In this document: positions 5,559 through 43,299 of the stretch, one piece after another
Numbering within the stretch: the stretch's first letter is position 1
Layout of the letters: each line of letters starts with the position of its first letter
NCBI GenBank assembly: GCA_938091995.1
Contig: CALKNZ010000029.1
Coordinates: 1 to 50,059 of the forward strand
Origin: an uncultured Luminiphilus sp.
Lineage (GTDB): Bacteria; Pseudomonadota; Gammaproteobacteria; Pseudomonadales; Halieaceae
Reading direction: 5' to 3'
Length of the DNA stretch: 50,059 nucleotides
Program-made: the position numbers and the translations under genes
The notes under the pieces: model-generated
What the model was told of the DNA's origin: nothing
The model's input: the letters and a program-made list of their open reading frames with translations, nothing else
The model's database searches: none

Positions 5559-6563
5559 ATGCACGCCATGTCACTTGCGGCCCCCGGAGGCATAGACCAA
5601 CTTTCGCTGGTCGATATTGAGCCCCGGGCACCGAAATCTCATGAGATTCAGGTTGCTATCAAAGCAACCTCGCTTAATTTTCATGATTATGCTGTTGTGG
5701 TCGGATTGATTCCCGCTGCAGATGGGCGTATTCCCATGTCAGACGGCGCGGGTGTTGTCACTGCAGTGGGGGACGAAGTCAGTGATTTCTCCGTTGGCGA
5801 TAAGGTGATCAGTCATTTCTTCCCCAACTGGGTCAGCGGTAGACCTACCACCGCCTGTCTTCAAGGGGTTCCCGGGGATCATATTGATGGCTTTGCAGCA
5901 CAGACCGTCACCATGCCAGCGAGCGCTTTCAGCCTGTCCCCAGCAAATCTGAGTCATATTGAAGCGGCAACTCTGAGCTGTGCGGGTTTAACCGCCTGGC
6001 GCGCACTGTGCGTTGAAACTGATCTTAGACCCGGAGATTGGGTTCTTGTTCAAGGTAGTGGTGGCGTTTCGGTGTTTGCGCTGCAATTTGCTCGCATGAT
6101 GGGTTGTAGAGTCATTGCCACCTCTTCTTCCGATGCCAAGCTGGAGCGCTTGGGTGAAATGGGCGCGCAGCATCTTATTAATTATCGTGACAACTCGAAT
6201 TGGGGCGCAACGGCTTTTGAGATGACCGGCGGTGCCGGTGTGAATCTTGTCGTGGAGGTTGGCGGGCCGGGCAACCTTCCGCAGTCGGTTGATGCCTTGG
6301 CTGTTGACGGCTGTATTAGTCTTATCGGTGTTTTGACAGGCTTTGCCGGTGAGGTCCCCACGGCAGCCCTAATGACAAAGAACGGTCGTCTTAGCGGTAT
6401 TACTGTGGGTAGCCACAGTGATCAGATGGCTATGTCTACCGCTGTTGAGGCTCACGACTTGAAACCCGTCATAGATTGTTCCATGCCTCTGGAAGCGTTA
6501 GGCGAGGCGTTTCGCCATCAGGAGTCGCAAAAGCACTTCGGTAAGATCTGTGTCGAACTTTAA
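5559..6563 (+). CDS. Zinc-independent MDR-family NAD(P)H oxidoreductase (quinone oxidoreductase-like)
   Basis: A 334-residue medium-chain dehydrogenase/reductase. The ATG at 5559 was chosen because AGGA lies eight bases upstream and because the MDR fold starts right after it. Visible elements are the N-terminal GroES-like domain (SLNFHDYAVVVG, SDGAGVVTAVGDEV), the Rossmann dinucleotide motif GSGGVSVFALQFARMMG and LGAQ-like MGAQHLINY. Neither the catalytic zinc ligand set nor a structural four-cysteine loop is present, so it resembles quinone oxidoreductase or NADPH-dependent enone reductases more than zinc alcohol dehydrogenases. The substrate is unknown. Confidence 0.87.
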   Translation: MHAMSLAAPGGIDQLSLVDIEPRAPKSHEIQVAIKATSLNFHDYAVVVGLIPAADGRIPMSDGAGVVTAVGDEVSDFSVGDKVISHFFPNWVSGRPTTACLQGVPGDHIDGFAAQTVTMPASAFSLSPANLSHIEAATLSCAGLTAWRALCVETDLRPGDWVLVQGSGGVSVFALQFARMMGCRVIATSSSDAKLERLGEMGAQHLINYRDNSNWGATAFEMTGGAGVNLVVEVGGPGNLPQSVDALAVDGCISLIGVLTGFAGEVPTAALMTKNGRLSGITVGSHSDQMAMSTAVEAHDLKPVIDCSMPLEALGEAFRHQESQKHFGKICVEL

Positions 6564-37408: not shown

Positions 37409-38335
37409 ATGTCTAATCGAGAACAAGTTCAGTTGATGAAGCGCTCGGCGAACAGCTACTGCGATACTCTGGCCTGGCCCACGATTATATTGATCACCAT
37501 AGTTTTCCCAACATACTTTTTAACCCCAGTCGCCGTGGTCGCCGGACTAATGCCTGCGGTTGTGGGAATGCTTGTGATGGCCTTCCTGACCTATGCCGTC
37601 TACACCGCGCTGCATGAGGCGGTGCATGGTGCTGTCTGTGGTGGCCAACAAAAACATCGTTGGGTCAATGAATGGGTGGGCTATTTGGCGGCGATCCCGT
37701 CAGGCGTTCCAATGTGCGCTCATCGCCATGAACACTTTTCACACCATAACCACACCAACAAATTAGGTGAGGATCCCGATCTGGTTTGTGCTGACATGAC
37801 AAATAATCTCTGGCGACTTGTCGCGTCGCCCATATTGCTAACCGCGCAGAATTATCAACTCTTTTTACGACAGAGGTGGCCTACGGCTCACAAAGAGCTC
37901 CGTCGAACCTTCGTACTTGAAGTGTTTGTCATACTTTTTAGTCGCGTTTTGTTACTGATTGCGTTGTTCGGCCCTGTAGCTGCAAGCGCGGGTGTTTCAA
38001 GTTTCTCAGTGGGCATGGATATCGTCCTCACTTTGATAATTGGGCCCCTGCTTGGTCAACTTGTTTTGGTTTATCTGTTCGCTTACGTTGTCCACATGCC
38101 GCATACCGTAGCGGGAAAGTTTGTTGACACCTCTATATTTGAATTGCCAAAGGTTTTGCGCGGCGTGGGTACTTGGTTTTGGGGATTCCAAAACTACCAC
38201 GGTATACATCACGCTTTTCCCAGAGTGCCCTGGTATCAATATCGGGCAGTTTTTGAGGCCCACCGAGATGAGTTATTTGAGCAGGGAATGCCCACTTACC
38301 AGCTTTCTGGCTTAAAATGGCGACGCATTAACTGA
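37409..38335 (+). CDS. Membrane di-iron fatty acid desaturase/hydroxylase family protein
   Basis: A 308-residue integral membrane protein with the three histidine boxes of the di-iron desaturase/hydroxylase superfamily: HEAVH (69-73), HRHEHFSHHNH (105-115) and HGIHH near residue 273. Hydrophobic segments flank them (26-62, 175-200, 210-230). The pattern is closest to fatty acid desaturases and beta-carotene hydroxylases rather than AlkB. An AGGGAG ribosome site precedes the ATG. It leads a rightward unit with a ferredoxin and a CYP153 P450 and may draw electrons from the same ferredoxin. Confidence 0.87.
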   Translation: MSNREQVQLMKRSANSYCDTLAWPTIILITIVFPTYFLTPVAVVAGLMPAVVGMLVMAFLTYAVYTALHEAVHGAVCGGQQKHRWVNEWVGYLAAIPSGVPMCAHRHEHFSHHNHTNKLGEDPDLVCADMTNNLWRLVASPILLTAQNYQLFLRQRWPTAHKELRRTFVLEVFVILFSRVLLLIALFGPVAASAGVSSFSVGMDIVLTLIIGPLLGQLVLVYLFAYVVHMPHTVAGKFVDTSIFELPKVLRGVGTWFWGFQNYHGIHHAFPRVPWYQYRAVFEAHRDELFEQGMPTYQLSGLKWRRIN

Positions 38336-38366
38336 TATCTAAATACACAGGCAAGGAGATTAAAGC

Positions 38367-38681
38367 ATGCCCGTTATAACCTTCATCGAATTCGACGGTA
38401 CGCAGCATCAGGTTGACAGTGAATCAGGCCTCTCGATCATGGAGATGGCTTTGAAGCACGATATCCCCGGTATTGATGCCGATTGTGGAGGTTCGGCAGT
38501 TTGTGGAACCTGTCATTGCTTTGTCGAAGCCTCGAACAACTTGCCCGCGGTAGAGCCTCAAGAAGAGTCTATGTTGGGGTTGCGCCCAGATCGAGAAGCC
38601 AACTCGCGTCTTAGCTGTCAACTTCAATTGAGTGAGCACAATGGCGATATGACTATTCGGCTCCCTGAATTTCAGATGTAG
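38367..38681 (+). CDS. [2Fe-2S] ferredoxin, adrenodoxin/putidaredoxin type
   Basis: A 104-residue ferredoxin with cluster ligands Cys40-x5-Cys46-x2-Cys49 and Cys84, the vertebrate/putidaredoxin spacing used by bacterial class I P450 systems. The end of the chain, RLSCQLQLSE...IRLPEF, is typical. AAGGAGA precedes the ATG. Situated between the desaturase and CYP153, it is probably the direct electron donor of the P450. Confidence 0.95.
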   Translation: MPVITFIEFDGTQHQVDSESGLSIMEMALKHDIPGIDADCGGSAVCGTCHCFVEASNNLPAVEPQEESMLGLRPDREANSRLSCQLQLSEHNGDMTIRLPEFQM

Positions 38682-38762
38682 CACCACGTATATGGCGTAT
38701 GAAGTGGAAGTATAGCGATCGCCTAATACTATCAACGGTCAAAATCGATAGAGGTTGCACCC

Positions 38763-40040
38763 ATGAACCAAGCCGTTACTCGGAAAGACGGACTGCCTGA
38801 TCCTTTGAATACACCCCTGGATCAGCTCGACGTGGCTGATCCAAGGCGCTTTGAGTTTGACACTTGGCAGCCCCTTTTTGAGCGGCTGCGAAATGAATCC
38901 CCCATTCACTATCAGTCAGAGGGGCCTGGAGGACCGGCACCTCACGGTGACTTTTGGTCAGTGACCAGATTCGAGGATATCGTCGAAGTGGAAAAGAACT
39001 GGGAGGCCTTTTCTTCTGAGCCGTCTATCGCCATTCTCGACCCTGAGCCCGACATGTCGGTGCAAATGTTTATCGCAACCGATCCACCACTGCATGATGA
39101 TCAAAGACGCGCCGTACAGGGTGCCGTTGCGCCGCGAAATTTGCAGGAATTTGAAGCGGTAATTCGCCAGCGTACCCAAGAAACTTTGGACGGTTTACCC
39201 TTGGGCGAGACCTTCAATTGGGTGGATCGTGTCTCTATCGACTTGACGACAAAAATGCTGGCGACACTCTTTGACTTTCCCCAAGAGCAACGTCATCTCC
39301 TAACCTATTGGTCAGACACGGCCACATCTGATGCGCGGATTACAGCGGGCCGCGGGCTGAGCATCGATGAACGAAGAGCCATTATGCTTGAAATGCTGCA
39401 AGCTTTTACCCAGCTCTGGCATGAGCATAAGGCAAATGATCAAGAGTCTTTTGACCTGATTCGTATGCTACAGCGTGACCCCAAAACAGCGAACATGGTT
39501 GAGGAGCCGTTGTCGTTTCTCGGCAATCTGATGCTGTTAATTGTGGGTGGCAACGACACTACCCGCAATTCTATGACCGGGGGAATCCTCCATTTGCATG
39601 AGAACCCCTCGGAGAGGGCGAAGCTCAAGGAAAATCCGGGATTGATCCCATCTATGGTGTCAGAAATTATTCGCTATCAAACACCATTGCCGCACATGCG
39701 CCGAACTGCGACCCGAGACGTTGAGATCAATGGCACGGTCATTCCCAAAGGCGGTCGCGTCGTTCTTTGGTATGTCTCGGGTAACCGCGATAGCGATGTC
39801 ATACCCAACGCAGATAAATTTGTTATAGACCGTCCCAATGTTCGCAACCATTTATCTTTCGGCATGGGTATCCATCGATGCATGGGTAATCGGCTTGCCG
39901 AGATGCAGCTGCGTATCGTTTGGGAAGAAATACTCGAGCGCTTTGAATGCGTTGAAGTGATGGGGCCTCCTGTAAGAACCTGCAACTCGTTCGTTCGCGG
40001 CTATCATGAGTTGCCCGTTAGACTGCATCCAAAAGCCTGA
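38763..40040 (+). CDS. Cytochrome P450, CYP153 family
   Basis: A 425-residue soluble P450. Heme-ligand Cys373 is in FGMGIHRCMGNRLAEMQLRI, and the I-helix oxygen-activation motif is GGNDTTRNSMTGG (262-274); both are hallmark CYP153 sequences. The K-helix ExxR is in SEIIRYQTPLPHMRRTA. CYP153 enzymes hydroxylate terminal carbons of n-alkanes, alcohols or fatty acids. The ferredoxin just upstream is its likely redox partner. A ferredoxin reductase gene, usual in CYP153 operons, is not in the window. The family call is from motif memory, not alignment. Confidence 0.92.
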   Translation: MNQAVTRKDGLPDPLNTPLDQLDVADPRRFEFDTWQPLFERLRNESPIHYQSEGPGGPAPHGDFWSVTRFEDIVEVEKNWEAFSSEPSIAILDPEPDMSVQMFIATDPPLHDDQRRAVQGAVAPRNLQEFEAVIRQRTQETLDGLPLGETFNWVDRVSIDLTTKMLATLFDFPQEQRHLLTYWSDTATSDARITAGRGLSIDERRAIMLEMLQAFTQLWHEHKANDQESFDLIRMLQRDPKTANMVEEPLSFLGNLMLLIVGGNDTTRNSMTGGILHLHENPSERAKLKENPGLIPSMVSEIIRYQTPLPHMRRTATRDVEINGTVIPKGGRVVLWYVSGNRDSDVIPNADKFVIDRPNVRNHLSFGMGIHRCMGNRLAEMQLRIVWEEILERFECVEVMGPPVRTCNSFVRGYHELPVRLHPKA

Positions 40041-40095: not shown

Positions 40096-41406
40096 TTAGA
40101 GGGGTTGGCCGTTCGTTTCATCTAATAACGACAAAGACCAAAGCGTCAGCAAGGCCGCGAGCAAAATGTAGATTGAAACAAAGACAATCCCTAATTCTTT
40201 CCACAGTAAAACCGCGAGGGTCGGTGCTAAGGCACCACCAACGATTGCGCCTAGTTGATAGCCTAATGATGCTCCCGAGTATCGAACCTCCGTGCTGAAG
40301 AGCTCGGTAAAATAAGCGGCTTGAGGTCCGTATTGCATGCCCAGGAAAGCCAGCCCCAAGGTGAGGCCCAGTGCAATAAGTGCAAGGGAGCCGGTGTCTA
40401 TAAGTGGAAATAGGGCAAAGCCCCAAAGTCCCGTCAAGATGGCGCCCCAGCGGTAAATCTTCTTTCGCCCCACTCGGTCAGACAGTCCCGAGAAATAAAA
40501 CTGCGTCGGCACCATCACTGCAGAGGCAATCAAAACTGCGGTTAGCATGGCTTCCCGCGAGAGGCTCACTGAGGGCGAGTTAAGGCCATAGGCCACGGTA
40601 AACGCGATCAAGATATAAAACGTTACCTGAACAGACAAAAATGCACCTGCTGCAAGCATGATTGTACGAGGATATTTCCTCAAGGCTTGTATGATGGGCG
40701 ATCGAACAACCACTTCAGCCTGATTTTGCGAGTCTTGTGCGGCCTTCAGCGCTTTAAAGGCCTCGGTGTCTTCAAGGCGCAGCTGCACGAAAAGCGATAC
40801 GCCAATCAAGACAATACTGGCGAGGAAAGGCAGTCGCCAGCCCCAGCTCATGAAGGATTCATCGCTCATGCTCATGCTAACGCCGATAAAGGCTAAGTTT
40901 GCCAGTATCACCCCAACCGGCGCGCCAGCTTGGGCGTAGGCCCCATACCAGCCTCGTTGGTTGGCAGGAGCGCTTTCGGTAACTAATAACATAGCCCCTC
41001 CCCATTGGCCGCCGATGGCAAGGCCTTGAACGAAGCGGAGTAACACCAGAAGTAGTGGCGCGGCAATGCCAATGGTGCCATAAGTTGGAAGTAAGCCTAT
41101 GAGTGTTGTCGCCGCACCCATCATCATGAGTGCAACCACTAATGTGTGCTTTCGACCTATTCGATCACCAAAGTGGCCGAAAATAATGCCCCCAACGGGT
41201 CTAGCAACAAAGCCCACCGCAAAGGTGCTAAAGGAAATAATGAGCAGGACCATGGGCGGTAGATCTTGGGGGAAAAAGGCCTTGGGGAAGACGATGGCAG
41301 CGGCCGTTCCATAGATGAAAAAATCGTACCATTCGATGCTCGTTCCGGCGAGCGAGGTGAGTGCGACTTTACGCATATTGCTCTTGTCGTCATGCTCAGA
41401 AGTCAT
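40096..41406 (-). CDS. MFS transporter, metabolite:H+ symporter (MHS) type
   Basis: A 436-residue carrier with 12 predicted helices. MHS features are SLAGTSIEWYDFFIYGTAA at the N terminus, then ARPVGGIIFGHFGDRIGRKHTLV with the signature loop between helices 2 and 3. RFVQGLAIGGQWGGAMLLVTE follows, and a second DRVGRKK loop. Members import small organic acids such as shikimate, proline/betaine or dicarboxylates. The substrate is not predictable. It is divergent from the UGSC operon, with 293 bases between starts. Confidence 0.92.
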   Translation of the reverse strand: MTSEHDDKSNMRKVALTSLAGTSIEWYDFFIYGTAAAIVFPKAFFPQDLPPMVLLIISFSTFAVGFVARPVGGIIFGHFGDRIGRKHTLVVALMMMGAATTLIGLLPTYGTIGIAAPLLLVLLRFVQGLAIGGQWGGAMLLVTESAPANQRGWYGAYAQAGAPVGVILANLAFIGVSMSMSDESFMSWGWRLPFLASIVLIGVSLFVQLRLEDTEAFKALKAAQDSQNQAEVVVRSPIIQALRKYPRTIMLAAGAFLSVQVTFYILIAFTVAYGLNSPSVSLSREAMLTAVLIASAVMVPTQFYFSGLSDRVGRKKIYRWGAILTGLWGFALFPLIDTGSLALIALGLTLGLAFLGMQYGPQAAYFTELFSTEVRYSGASLGYQLGAIVGGALAPTLAVLLWKELGIVFVSIYILLAALLTLWSLSLLDETNGQPL

Positions 41407-41686: not shown

Positions 41687-41695
41687 TAAAGGAGG
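41687..41695 (+). promoter_or_regulatory. Strong Shine-Dalgarno for the UGSC gene
   Basis: TAAAGGAGG, an almost full complement to the 16S rRNA 3' end, ends four bases before the ATG at 41700. It fixes that start and indicates that the gene is well translated, as expected for a real gene rather than a decaying one. Confidence 0.85.
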
Positions 41696-41699
41696 TCAC

Positions 41700-42236
41700 A
41701 TGATCGAATATCACAACCCAGATGCGTCAGTAGGTATTGAAGAGATACCTTACGAACTGTCGTTAACCGTTAATCGAGAGACGACAGCAACGATTGGCTT
41801 GTTGGCTAATGGATTTCCAGATTCCGTGGAGTTTTTAAATGCAGTGGGCGACGCTGTACGCGCGCTGTTTCCCAGTATTACGCTGCGAGCGTATAACAAA
41901 GGCAACGCCACCATTCCTGCTGGAGACCAACTGTTACAGGAAATTACCGGGGAGTGTGCGGGGGTTATAGCGGCCTACGGACACTGAGGTTCTTGCACTA
42001 CCGGCACCGTGCGTGACGGCATCAATATTGCAAATTTGGGTATTCCCTCTGTCGCACTGGTGACCGAAGAATTTTGGGCTCAGGGTGACTTTGTTGCTCA
42101 ATCCTTAGGTATGCCCGCAGTGCCCCGTGTTCAGTTGCCTCATCCCGTGGCAGGAACAGACACCGTAACTATGCGTAAGATTGCTGAGTTAGTAGCGCCC
42201 ACCATCGTTCAAGCCTTGGAGGGTGGTGATGACTGA
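41700..42236 (+). CDS. UGSC family selenoprotein (in-frame TGA read as selenocysteine)
   Basis: One reading frame of 179 codons with an internal TGA at 41985-41987. Reading it as selenocysteine gives a 178-residue protein with Sec96-Gly97-Ser98-Cys99 in AAYGHUGSCTTGTVRDG, the signature of the UGSC selenoproteins known from marine metagenomes. The frame continues without shift on both sides; the second part alone could only start at a GTG at 42009 with no ribosome site and would lose the motif. The N-terminal half has IGLLANGFPDSVEFLNAVGDAVR, the C-terminal half IANLGIPSVALVTEEFWAQGDFVAQSLGMP, an alpha/beta Rossmann-like pattern. The Sec/Cys pair could form a selenenylsulfide redox centre. Function is unknown. 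It overlaps the next gene by eight bases. Sec machinery is not in the window. The alternative is a nonsense mutation, unlikely given intact flanks and motif. Confidence 0.85.
42004..42020 (+). promoter_or_regulatory. Candidate bacterial SECIS hairpin
   Basis: CCGT (42007-42010) pairs with ACGG (42016-42019) around a five-base loop GCGTG. G42004-C42020 can close below a two-base bulge. The loop starts 23 bases after the TGA, within the usual bacterial range of about 16-37, and its first base is G, as SelB-binding loops need. A competing fold pairs GCAC (41995-41998) with GTGC (42009-42012). I cannot compute energies, and the typical bulged U is not obvious. Confidence 0.4.
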
Positions 42237-43299
42237 TTTACTGTCGTGTGCTGATGAAGCACAAGCACTTGAGGATCTGCATCAGCGAGGGTGTACCGAC
42301 GGCTTGCCCGTGGTTATTCCGACTAAGGACAGGGTCTCACGCATGGTGCTGGCATCGGGGCAAGCCAGGGACATGGTGCTGGGTACTATGGGTCCTGGTC
42401 ATGGTGTGGCTAGCATAGAAAAGATTGCTGTCGCCGCCGTTATGGCCGGTTGTTTACCCGACTATATGCCGGTAGTCGTTGCGGCGGTTAAGGCCGTAAT
42501 TGAACCTGCCTTTGATTTGACGGAAATGCAGGCGACAACCCATTGCACGGCACCCCTTGTGATTGTAAACGGCCCTGCGCGCCACAATTGCGGCCCTATC
42601 GTTTCTGGCACTGGTGCTCTTGGGCCTGGTCATCGCGCCAATGCCTCAATAGGACGCGCACTGCGGCTGACGATGATCAACATTGGTAAAGCCAGGCCCG
42701 GTAGTTCAGATATGGCGTTACTAGGGCATCCGGGTAAGTTCACTTATTGTCTTGCCGAGGACGAGGAGGGCAGCCCTTTTCCCCCGCTGCATGTGTCACT
42801 GGGTTTCGCTGCAGAGGATAGTGTTGTAACCGTCGTGGGGGCCGAGGCGCCCCATTCGGTGCTTTTTGCGGGCGATGGTGATGACCCTGAAAGTTATGCC
42901 GCGTTGCTTGATTTATTGGCGATGGCATTGGCAAATGCGCCCAGTAACAATGCCATGTTAACGGGTGGGTTTGCGACTGTTGTGCTGAACCCTGAGCACA
43001 GCGAAATTTTGCATAAGGCAGGACTCACGCGAGAGGATATTACTCGCGAGCTATATGAGCGTTGTTTTTTAACACCGGAAGCTGTCAAGCATCTCATGCC
43101 CGCATTTGCGGGTGAGAATCCGTCGAAGCGAATGGCATTTCGGGGCCCAGAGCAGATCTTAATTATACAGGCTGGGGGTAGTGGGCTTTACTCAATGGTT
43201 ATGCCCTCTTGGTGCGCGGGAGCCCATAGTAATTCAGCGGTTAGTATTAAGGTTGAAGCTGATATTTTCTGCGAGATTCCCAGCTTCTCCAGCTCCTGA
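42229..43299 (+). CDS. Uncharacterised protein coupled to the UGSC selenoprotein
   Basis: A 356-residue protein. The ATG at 42229 lies five bases after GGAGGG and overlaps the UGSC stop by eight bases, so the two are translationally coupled (GTG codons at 42223 and 42226 are less likely). I do not recognise a named domain. It starts with ALEDLHQRGCTDGLPVVIPT, then has glycine-rich GTMGPGHGVASIEKIAVAAV, THCTAPLVIVNGPARHNCG and GTGALGPGHRANASIGRA, a late VVLNPEHSEILHKAGLTRE, and ends with LIIQAGGSGLYSMVMPSW. Cys residues in RGC, HCT and HNCG could bind metal or exchange disulfides. No signal peptide or membrane segment is seen. By context it is the working partner of the selenoprotein; the reaction is unknown. 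Confidence 0.85.
   Translation: MTDLLSCADEAQALEDLHQRGCTDGLPVVIPTKDRVSRMVLASGQARDMVLGTMGPGHGVASIEKIAVAAVMAGCLPDYMPVVVAAVKAVIEPAFDLTEMQATTHCTAPLVIVNGPARHNCGPIVSGTGALGPGHRANASIGRALRLTMINIGKARPGSSDMALLGHPGKFTYCLAEDEEGSPFPPLHVSLGFAAEDSVVTVVGAEAPHSVLFAGDGDDPESYAALLDLLAMALANAPSNNAMLTGGFATVVLNPEHSEILHKAGLTREDITRELYERCFLTPEAVKHLMPAFAGENPSKRMAFRGPEQILIIQAGGSGLYSMVMPSWCAGAHSNSAVSIKVEADIFCEIPSFSSS

Follow-up and report, generated by a model that had tools for sequence, protein, structure and literature searches.

An in-frame TGA apparently read as selenocysteine in a UGSC-family gene of an uncultured Luminiphilus, its overlapping partner gene, and sequence kinship with GrdB

Does the TGA codon interrupting an otherwise open reading frame of an uncultured Luminiphilus sp. 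(Gammaproteobacteria, Halieaceae) encode selenocysteine (Sec), and what might the resulting protein do? The DNA in question, hereafter the window, is a stretch of 50,059 nucleotides (GenBank assembly GCA_938091995.1, contig CALKNZ010000029.1, positions 1 to 50,059). A previous reading of its letters alone, the sequence-only reading, had proposed that two seemingly split open reading frames constitute one gene for a UGSC-family selenoprotein, a redox protein of unknown function. To the extent that sequence data can establish it, the gene encodes a UGSC selenoprotein made by SelB-dependent decoding of the TGA at 41985-41987 as Sec. The second half of the description turned out to be an understatement, since it misses a constant partner gene and a detectable kinship with GrdB, the Sec-containing subunit of glycine reductase. 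The account tentatively favored here is that the protein is a stand-alone relative of the C-terminal Sec domain of GrdB, which would form a heteromer with the partner and act as a selenolate reductase of carbon-heteroatom (C-X) bonds.

The frame runs without a break from ATG 41700 to position 42236 and encodes 178 residues, being open apart from the TGA, and the codons following the TGA read Gly-Ser-Cys, which gives Sec96-Gly-Ser-Cys. The protein is intact on both sides: the Pfam UGSC model (PF24696, cut-off 25 bits) spans the TGA at 138.6 bits, and each half exceeds the cut-off alone (35.4 bits for the N-terminal and 82.4 bits for the C-terminal part), which led to the rejection of a chance frame. 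A near-perfect Shine-Dalgarno sequence (AAAGGAGG) is spaced by 4 nt from the ATG, and the second part has no credible start of its own; the first in-frame start past the TGA is GTG 42009, located within a conserved motif. The continuous frame, the intact flanks, the Shine-Dalgarno sequence, and the lack of a credible second start had been claimed from the letters and were borne out, as was the expectation that homologues span the TGA, be it in the Pfam match, in genomes of the same order (Pseudomonadales), or in the loci retrieved via the partner gene (see below). In 76 of the 80 partner-anchored loci, the same TGA was detected by script, and one more (L078) was recognized by eye among N's; the remaining three loci start only 59, 166, and 231 bases before the partner match. 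Cysteine replaces Sec in none of the 76 TGA-bearing genes. Elsewhere, two UGSC genes without the TGA were encountered, one with a cysteine codon (TGC; L018 in genome G143) and one without any internal stop (L055 in genome G441). Scans near the gene of the window found no sigma-70-like promoter site, and two terminator-like sites, which is no more than in shuffled sequences.

The inference that the host decodes Sec gained support: selA, selB, selC, and selD are all present in the genome to which the window belongs (2.88 Mb on 130 contigs, 80.75% complete). The genes for selC (67.7 bits, cut-off 47; anticodon TCA), selB (359 bits), and selA (576 bits) lie side by side on one contig (C17) and selD (409 bits) lies on another (C81); the genome contains a single UGSC gene. 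UGSC matches above the cut-off were found in 38 of 390 genomes of the order, and 51 of the 52 matches contain one TGA, the exception being that of G441; in a phylum-wide sample, five of 398 genomes, including that of the window, had a match. The gene for selA was present in 36 of the 38 UGSC-positive genomes versus 20 of the 352 other genomes of the order (Fisher p 5e-34, which, because the genomes are related, is not a count of independent events). The two UGSC-positive genomes without selA are G441, the UGSC gene of which has no TGA, and G667.

Further indication of Sec insertion came from the nucleotides following the TGA, where 57 non-redundant genes (identity limit 90%) of 73 usable ones from the subfamily of the window, its own included, were compared. 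Third positions of codons 102 to 106 (G, T, V, R, D) are invariant wherever the residue is kept, and those of codon 101 nearly so; for 12 codons within 97-109, third-position heterogeneity averaged 0.26, as compared with 0.61 for 56 conserved codons elsewhere in the gene (p 6e-5, Mann-Whitney). Such near-frozen positions fit what a Sec insertion sequence (SECIS) element would require. The subfamily alignment yields a small consensus hairpin in this region; in other subtypes, roughly this position is occupied by a different hairpin. Folded alone, the 21-nt piece adopts the consensus hairpin, yet no better than its shuffles do (z 0.2), and the wider region folds differently and with ordinary energy; the evidence for a likely SECIS element is therefore the synonymous constraint and not the structure. 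Covariation supporting the hairpin was not found within the window's subfamily, and an Rfam scan near the gene gave nothing over the cut-off (one subthreshold match was taken as chance).

Assignment to the UGSC family, as had been proposed, holds for the Pfam model; the NCBIfam model NF041046, at 103.5 bits, stays below its cut-off of 125, which places the protein in a sister subfamily of UGSC. In a tree of 69 UGSC proteins selected from the sequences read, this subfamily is clade A (40 rows, motif GH-UGSC-T[TS]GT, support 100/93). Group B (support 89/39) comprises 24 rows characterized by UGSCxxC, one of which is the cysteine form L018, as well as L024; four rows make up clade C (support 100/99). 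According to a warning of the tree program, long branches come together where A adjoins C and among certain B rows. All six type-A members tested score between 97.6 and 105.1 bits against NF041046, that is, below the cut-off, which three B members pass (129.7-159.6 bits) and which one C member (76.2 bits) and L018 (120.1 bits) do not. Because the subfamily falls below the curated NCBI cut-off, automated annotation may break its genes in two at the TGA. Weak UGSC matches in frames of ∼500 aa (L050-L054) were excluded as chance, two of them (L051 and L052, those in which the script located the frame) resembling, as judged by eye, flavin adenine dinucleotide-binding flavoproteins.

The UGSC gene overlaps with a second gene, here termed the partner, for which searches against Pfam, NCBIfam, and PDB sequences gave nothing credible. 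A profile built from nine aligned partners was run over the genome contigs, and the best 80 of 290 stretches encoding relatives were used. UGSC is directly upstream of the partner in 77 of these loci (L078 included), and the other three have at most 231 bases upstream; the overlap, as judged from the start of the partner match, is most commonly 8 nt (42 loci), followed by 4 nt (23 loci). Conversely, starting from UGSC, 47 of the 56 other listed places above the cut-off were fetched (50 loci, three of which were repeats). At 46 of these 47, the partner profile gave a match close to UGSC; in the one place without a match, L033, the sequence starts 52 bases upstream of UGSC. In subtypes other than A, the partner is mostly located upstream, but downstream in L017, L019, and L055, and on the opposite strand in L022. 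In L062 (G459:C2), UGSC and partner are a single, fused, Sec-containing protein. The cultured marine strain HTCC2143 also possesses the pair (L126). This near-universal pairing, together with the fusion, supports the proposal, made at the level of sequence, that UGSC would be one half of a heteromeric enzyme, the other half being the product of the overlapping gene.

Within the genus, 16 of 37 genomes, including that of the window, contain the partner, and the true share may be higher because several of these genomes are incomplete. An alignment of 51 selected partners has ten invariant residues, and conservation reaches 90% or more at Cys75 and Cys174. Four of the 11 B, C, or fused partners inspected have an N-terminal domain with CPTC or CETC, some loci ending before that point; the thioredoxin-family matches of the two scanned are weak. 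The partner was modeled with a predicted local distance difference test score (pLDDT) of 90. A cyanuric acid hydrolase or fumarase-type fold, with the best E value of 1.3e-3 but a template modeling (TM) score of ∼0.2, was not used.

To what, then, is UGSC related? A profile of the 69 UGSC proteins was compared with one GrdB sequence from the same order (L158), which scores 448 bits against the Pfam GRDB model (PF07355) and has an adjoining GrdE gene. The comparison gave a probability of 92-93% and pairwise E values of 3e-7 to 7e-7 over 78 columns, and the alignment places Sec on Sec and PHPVAG on PHPLGD. Its score of 49.75 exceeds the best of 200 shuffles (20.7) and that of the reversed sequence (22.2). 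When a ten-residue motif was kept and the rest shuffled, the best of 200 reached 37.6; the score is thus not accounted for by the motif by itself. Furthermore, type B carries UxxCxxC, as GrdB does. Kinship of UGSC with GrdB is therefore, on the sequence level, well supported. At L158 and L186 (G761:C195; the genome belongs to the same order as that of the window), a full GrdB gene with in-frame TGA stands next to one for GrdE. Among 120 genomes searched, GrdE was found in one and a GRDB match above the cut-off in 76. One family of the order has short Sec-containing PrdB-like proteins (L150-L185; 25 were read, with UPVCHQ-, UPNCTR-, and similar motifs). These are clear relatives of GrdB (E 1.7e-20), and their PF07355 matches end just before their Sec.

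Protein C of glycine reductase includes a KAS III-like subunit, and a KAS III-like gene directly follows UGSC in all four type-C loci (Pfam matches were obtained for the three scanned). This KAS III-like enzyme, the thioredoxin-like domain of some type-B members, the dedicated subunit, and the GrdB-type Sec domain together are why a two-subunit, thiol-dependent reductase is proposed, in which a selenolate would attack a carbon-heteroatom bond. The partner would bind and polarize a small substrate; the selenolate of Sec96, situated at the start of a helix, would attack carbon and displace nitrogen, oxygen, or a halide, leaving a selenoether; Cys99 or a cysteine of the partner would open the selenoether, yielding a selenenylsulfide, from which a thioredoxin-type dithiol would regenerate the selenol. 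Some type-B relatives have a domain of this kind (CPTC) fused to the partner, and in type C, the KAS III-like enzyme might accept an acyl product in the way that protein C of glycine reductase does. In glycine reductase, according to the portions of the literature consulted, the selenolate displaces the amino group, a thiol cuts the selenoether, thioredoxin reduces, and protein C forms acetyl phosphate (PMC10298544, PMC13188914); a GrdB/GrdE-like pair has also been proposed to cleave C-F bonds (PMC10838667). A bolder version, and a rather doubtful one, is that UGSC and partner form an enzyme akin to glycine reductase that is widespread in marine, chiefly gammaproteobacterial lineages, and in which a stripped-down GrdB Sec domain and a new substrate-binding subunit would cleave C-N, C-O, or C-halogen bonds via a selenoether.

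Several observations weigh against a GrdB-like reductase. Much of the GrdB score stems from the ten-residue motif; with the motif masked, it drops to 29.7, little above the background of 27.1, which is the best of 644 neighborhood proteins (≥150 aa, pair genes excluded). The comparison involved a single true GrdB, represented by one sequence, and none of the 69 UGSC proteins matched PF07355 even when E values as high as 10 were allowed, which is why UGSC is not filed as GrdB. Short PrdB-like proteins scored 29.07 with UGSC (best of 100 column shuffles, 22.5), after a first comparison with seven rows had given an E value of 0.0099 and a probability of 4%; the kinship of UGSC with this set thus rests mainly on the GrdB link. 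The third Cys of UxxCxxC is missing in types A and C. For the partner, comparison with GrdE, GrdB, and UGSC profiles revealed no kinship; its profile gave E 0.26 against one GrdE, and by this measure UGSC is not paired with a GrdE- or PrdA-like subunit. Neither did its predicted fold have a confident match in the PDB (none at E ≤0.001). Among the families scanned, no thioredoxin or KAS III gene directly adjoins the window's own pair, and the thioredoxin-like protein beside L056, a candidate for the reductant, is devoid of cysteine and was not used. Lastly, gene neighborhoods indicate no substrate, as the genes outside the pair vary.

The strongest competitor, which we nevertheless consider unlikely, sees in UGSC a thioredoxin-like oxidoreductase of thiols or peroxides, in which a Sec96-Cys99 selenenylsulfide would reduce disulfides or peroxides, with the partner as its client. 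UxxC motifs are typical of redox selenoproteins, and a thioredoxin-like domain is fused to some type-B partners. However, the AlphaFold2 model of UGSC (mean pLDDT 94) consists of five strands alternating with five helices, (beta-alpha)5, with Sec at the start of the helix following the third strand; judged against the well-known thioredoxin topology, the predicted fold is probably not that of thioredoxin. Moreover, thioredoxin is absent from the 50 solved Foldseek matches listed, the thioredoxin family is absent from the Pfam matches of the 69 UGSC members, and the alignment with GrdB, given its controls, points elsewhere. The parts of the literature consulted lean the other way: a Global Ocean Sampling (GOS) paper of 2008 thought a thioredoxin fold likely for UGSC (PMC2398784), which the (beta-alpha)5 model does not fit, and a 2026 review lists UGSC next to thioredoxin-like families (PMC13188914).

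Improbable, in turn, is a role of UGSC and partner in selenium handling, for example, delivery to or storage for SelD, instead of chemistry on an organic substrate. It would explain why selA adjoins UGSC in four genomes (G593, G433, G556, and G575; ∼85-110 bp between matched edges) and is one gene away in two more (G591 and G534), always on the same strand, and why selD is near UGSC in L056. Yet, of the 36 genomes that contain both genes, the remaining 30, including that of the window, have selA and UGSC, as judged by eye, at least 6 kb from each other or on separate contigs. Moreover, selA occurs without UGSC in 20 genomes, and the UGSC protein itself requires Sec. A shade less probable still is a flavodoxin-like, flavin-dependent reductase with Sec assisting a bound flavin. 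The best solved Foldseek matches are flavodoxin-like (E 1e-4, TM 0.47) and include the corresponding domains of flavodiiron proteins, AzoR, and WrbA, but TM-scores of these to the query are ∼0.35-0.48 at 10-14% identity, the list is mixed, also containing lumazine synthase, FtsZ, and TIR domains, and the fold class itself is a broad one. That the TGA terminates translation or stems from faulty assembly, leaving two broken fragments, as translation with table 11 (which terminates at TGA) would have it, has a practically negligible probability in view of its recurrence in related loci, the constrained synonymous sites following it, and the Sec machinery of the host.

Regarding the surroundings, a frame recognized by eye as desaturase-like, a gene for a 2Fe-2S ferredoxin (38367-38681), and a cytochrome P450 gene (38763-40040) lie upstream on the plus strand (window positions 37409-40040); the relative L069 has the same order. 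Directly before UGSC, the minus strand (40096-41406) encodes a transporter that falls into the metabolite/H+ symporter group with a TIGR00883 score of 401 bits, which is under the cut-off. In 10 of the 80 partner loci (L088-L107), the pair is immediately followed, ∼1100 bases past the partner start, by a gene that by eye resembles a short-chain dehydrogenase/reductase (SDR). Genes named by eye as SDR, class I fumarase, P450, or coenzyme A-transferase recur in some of the 80 loci, but since these loci are related to one another, no substrate is claimed. At L056, a cysteine-free thioredoxin-family protein is encoded (6074-6397) between the UGSC/KAS III cluster and selD. The features of the locus are compiled in the table.

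Table. Features of the UGSC locus (window coordinates) and what each assignment is based on.
Feature	Position	Strand	Basis
UGSC-family selenoprotein gene, 178 aa, Sec96	41700..42236	+	ATG 41700, stop 42234-42236; Pfam/NCBIfam scores, 76 same-subfamily homologues
In-frame TGA, read as selenocysteine; UGSC motif 41985-41996	41985..41987	+	Sequence reading, homologues, Sec machinery
Shine-Dalgarno AAAGGAGG	41688..41695	+	Direct reading; ends 4 nt 5' of ATG
Partner gene, 356 aa, no known family	42229..43299	+	ATG overlaps UGSC stop (ATGACTGA); family scans, pairing, model
Likely SECIS element	42000..42020	+	Near-frozen synonymous sites; consensus hairpin 42001-42019, loop CGUGC 42008-42012

How does this locus relate to what has been described? 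The statement of the sequence-only reading that UGSC was first reported from marine metagenomes is loose, as the 2008 GOS paper, in the part consulted, lists UGSC as previously described (PMC2398784). According to a 2021 survey, likewise consulted in part, UGSC accounts for 8.2% of selenoprotein genes and is a prominent marine family (PMC9402790). No function is given in the portions of the UGSC literature examined, and neither a rule of pairing with a partner nor a link between UGSC and GrdB was found in these, chiefly open, sources, in which some papers merely name both. The family is already known; the partner rule and the GrdB link are apparently new to the literature examined. The conserved partner, the type-specific neighbors, and the kinship with GrdB turn a protein of unknown function into a testable hypothesis of a C-X bond reductase.

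Compared with the UGSC family as modeled (PF24696, NF041046), the protein shares Sec-Gly-Ser-Cys, the Pfam match on both sides of the TGA, and the size; its subfamily differs in being a separate clade with the partner downstream and overlapping, whereas most other subtypes have it upstream. The UGSC/Unknown_1 fusion of the 2008 GOS study joins UGSC to a conserved domain that may be the partner domain of L062; the text on this fusion, in the portion consulted, does not describe the pairing of UGSC and partner (PMC2398784). With the D-proline reductase protein PrdB and the short marine PrdB-like proteins, UGSC has in common Sec-x-x-C after a hydrophobic strand, then a helix, GI, PR, and P-L-G, the profile score being marginal. 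With GrdB (PF07355), it shares Sec in U-G-x-C-T, an alignable order of motifs after Sec, and PHP[LV], from which it is set apart as a stand-alone domain of 178 aa without the N-terminal part of GrdB, and by a partner that is not GrdE-like. If the glycine-reductase-like version were true, these marine bacteria would perform selenium-carbon chemistry otherwise known from anaerobic amino acid fermenters.
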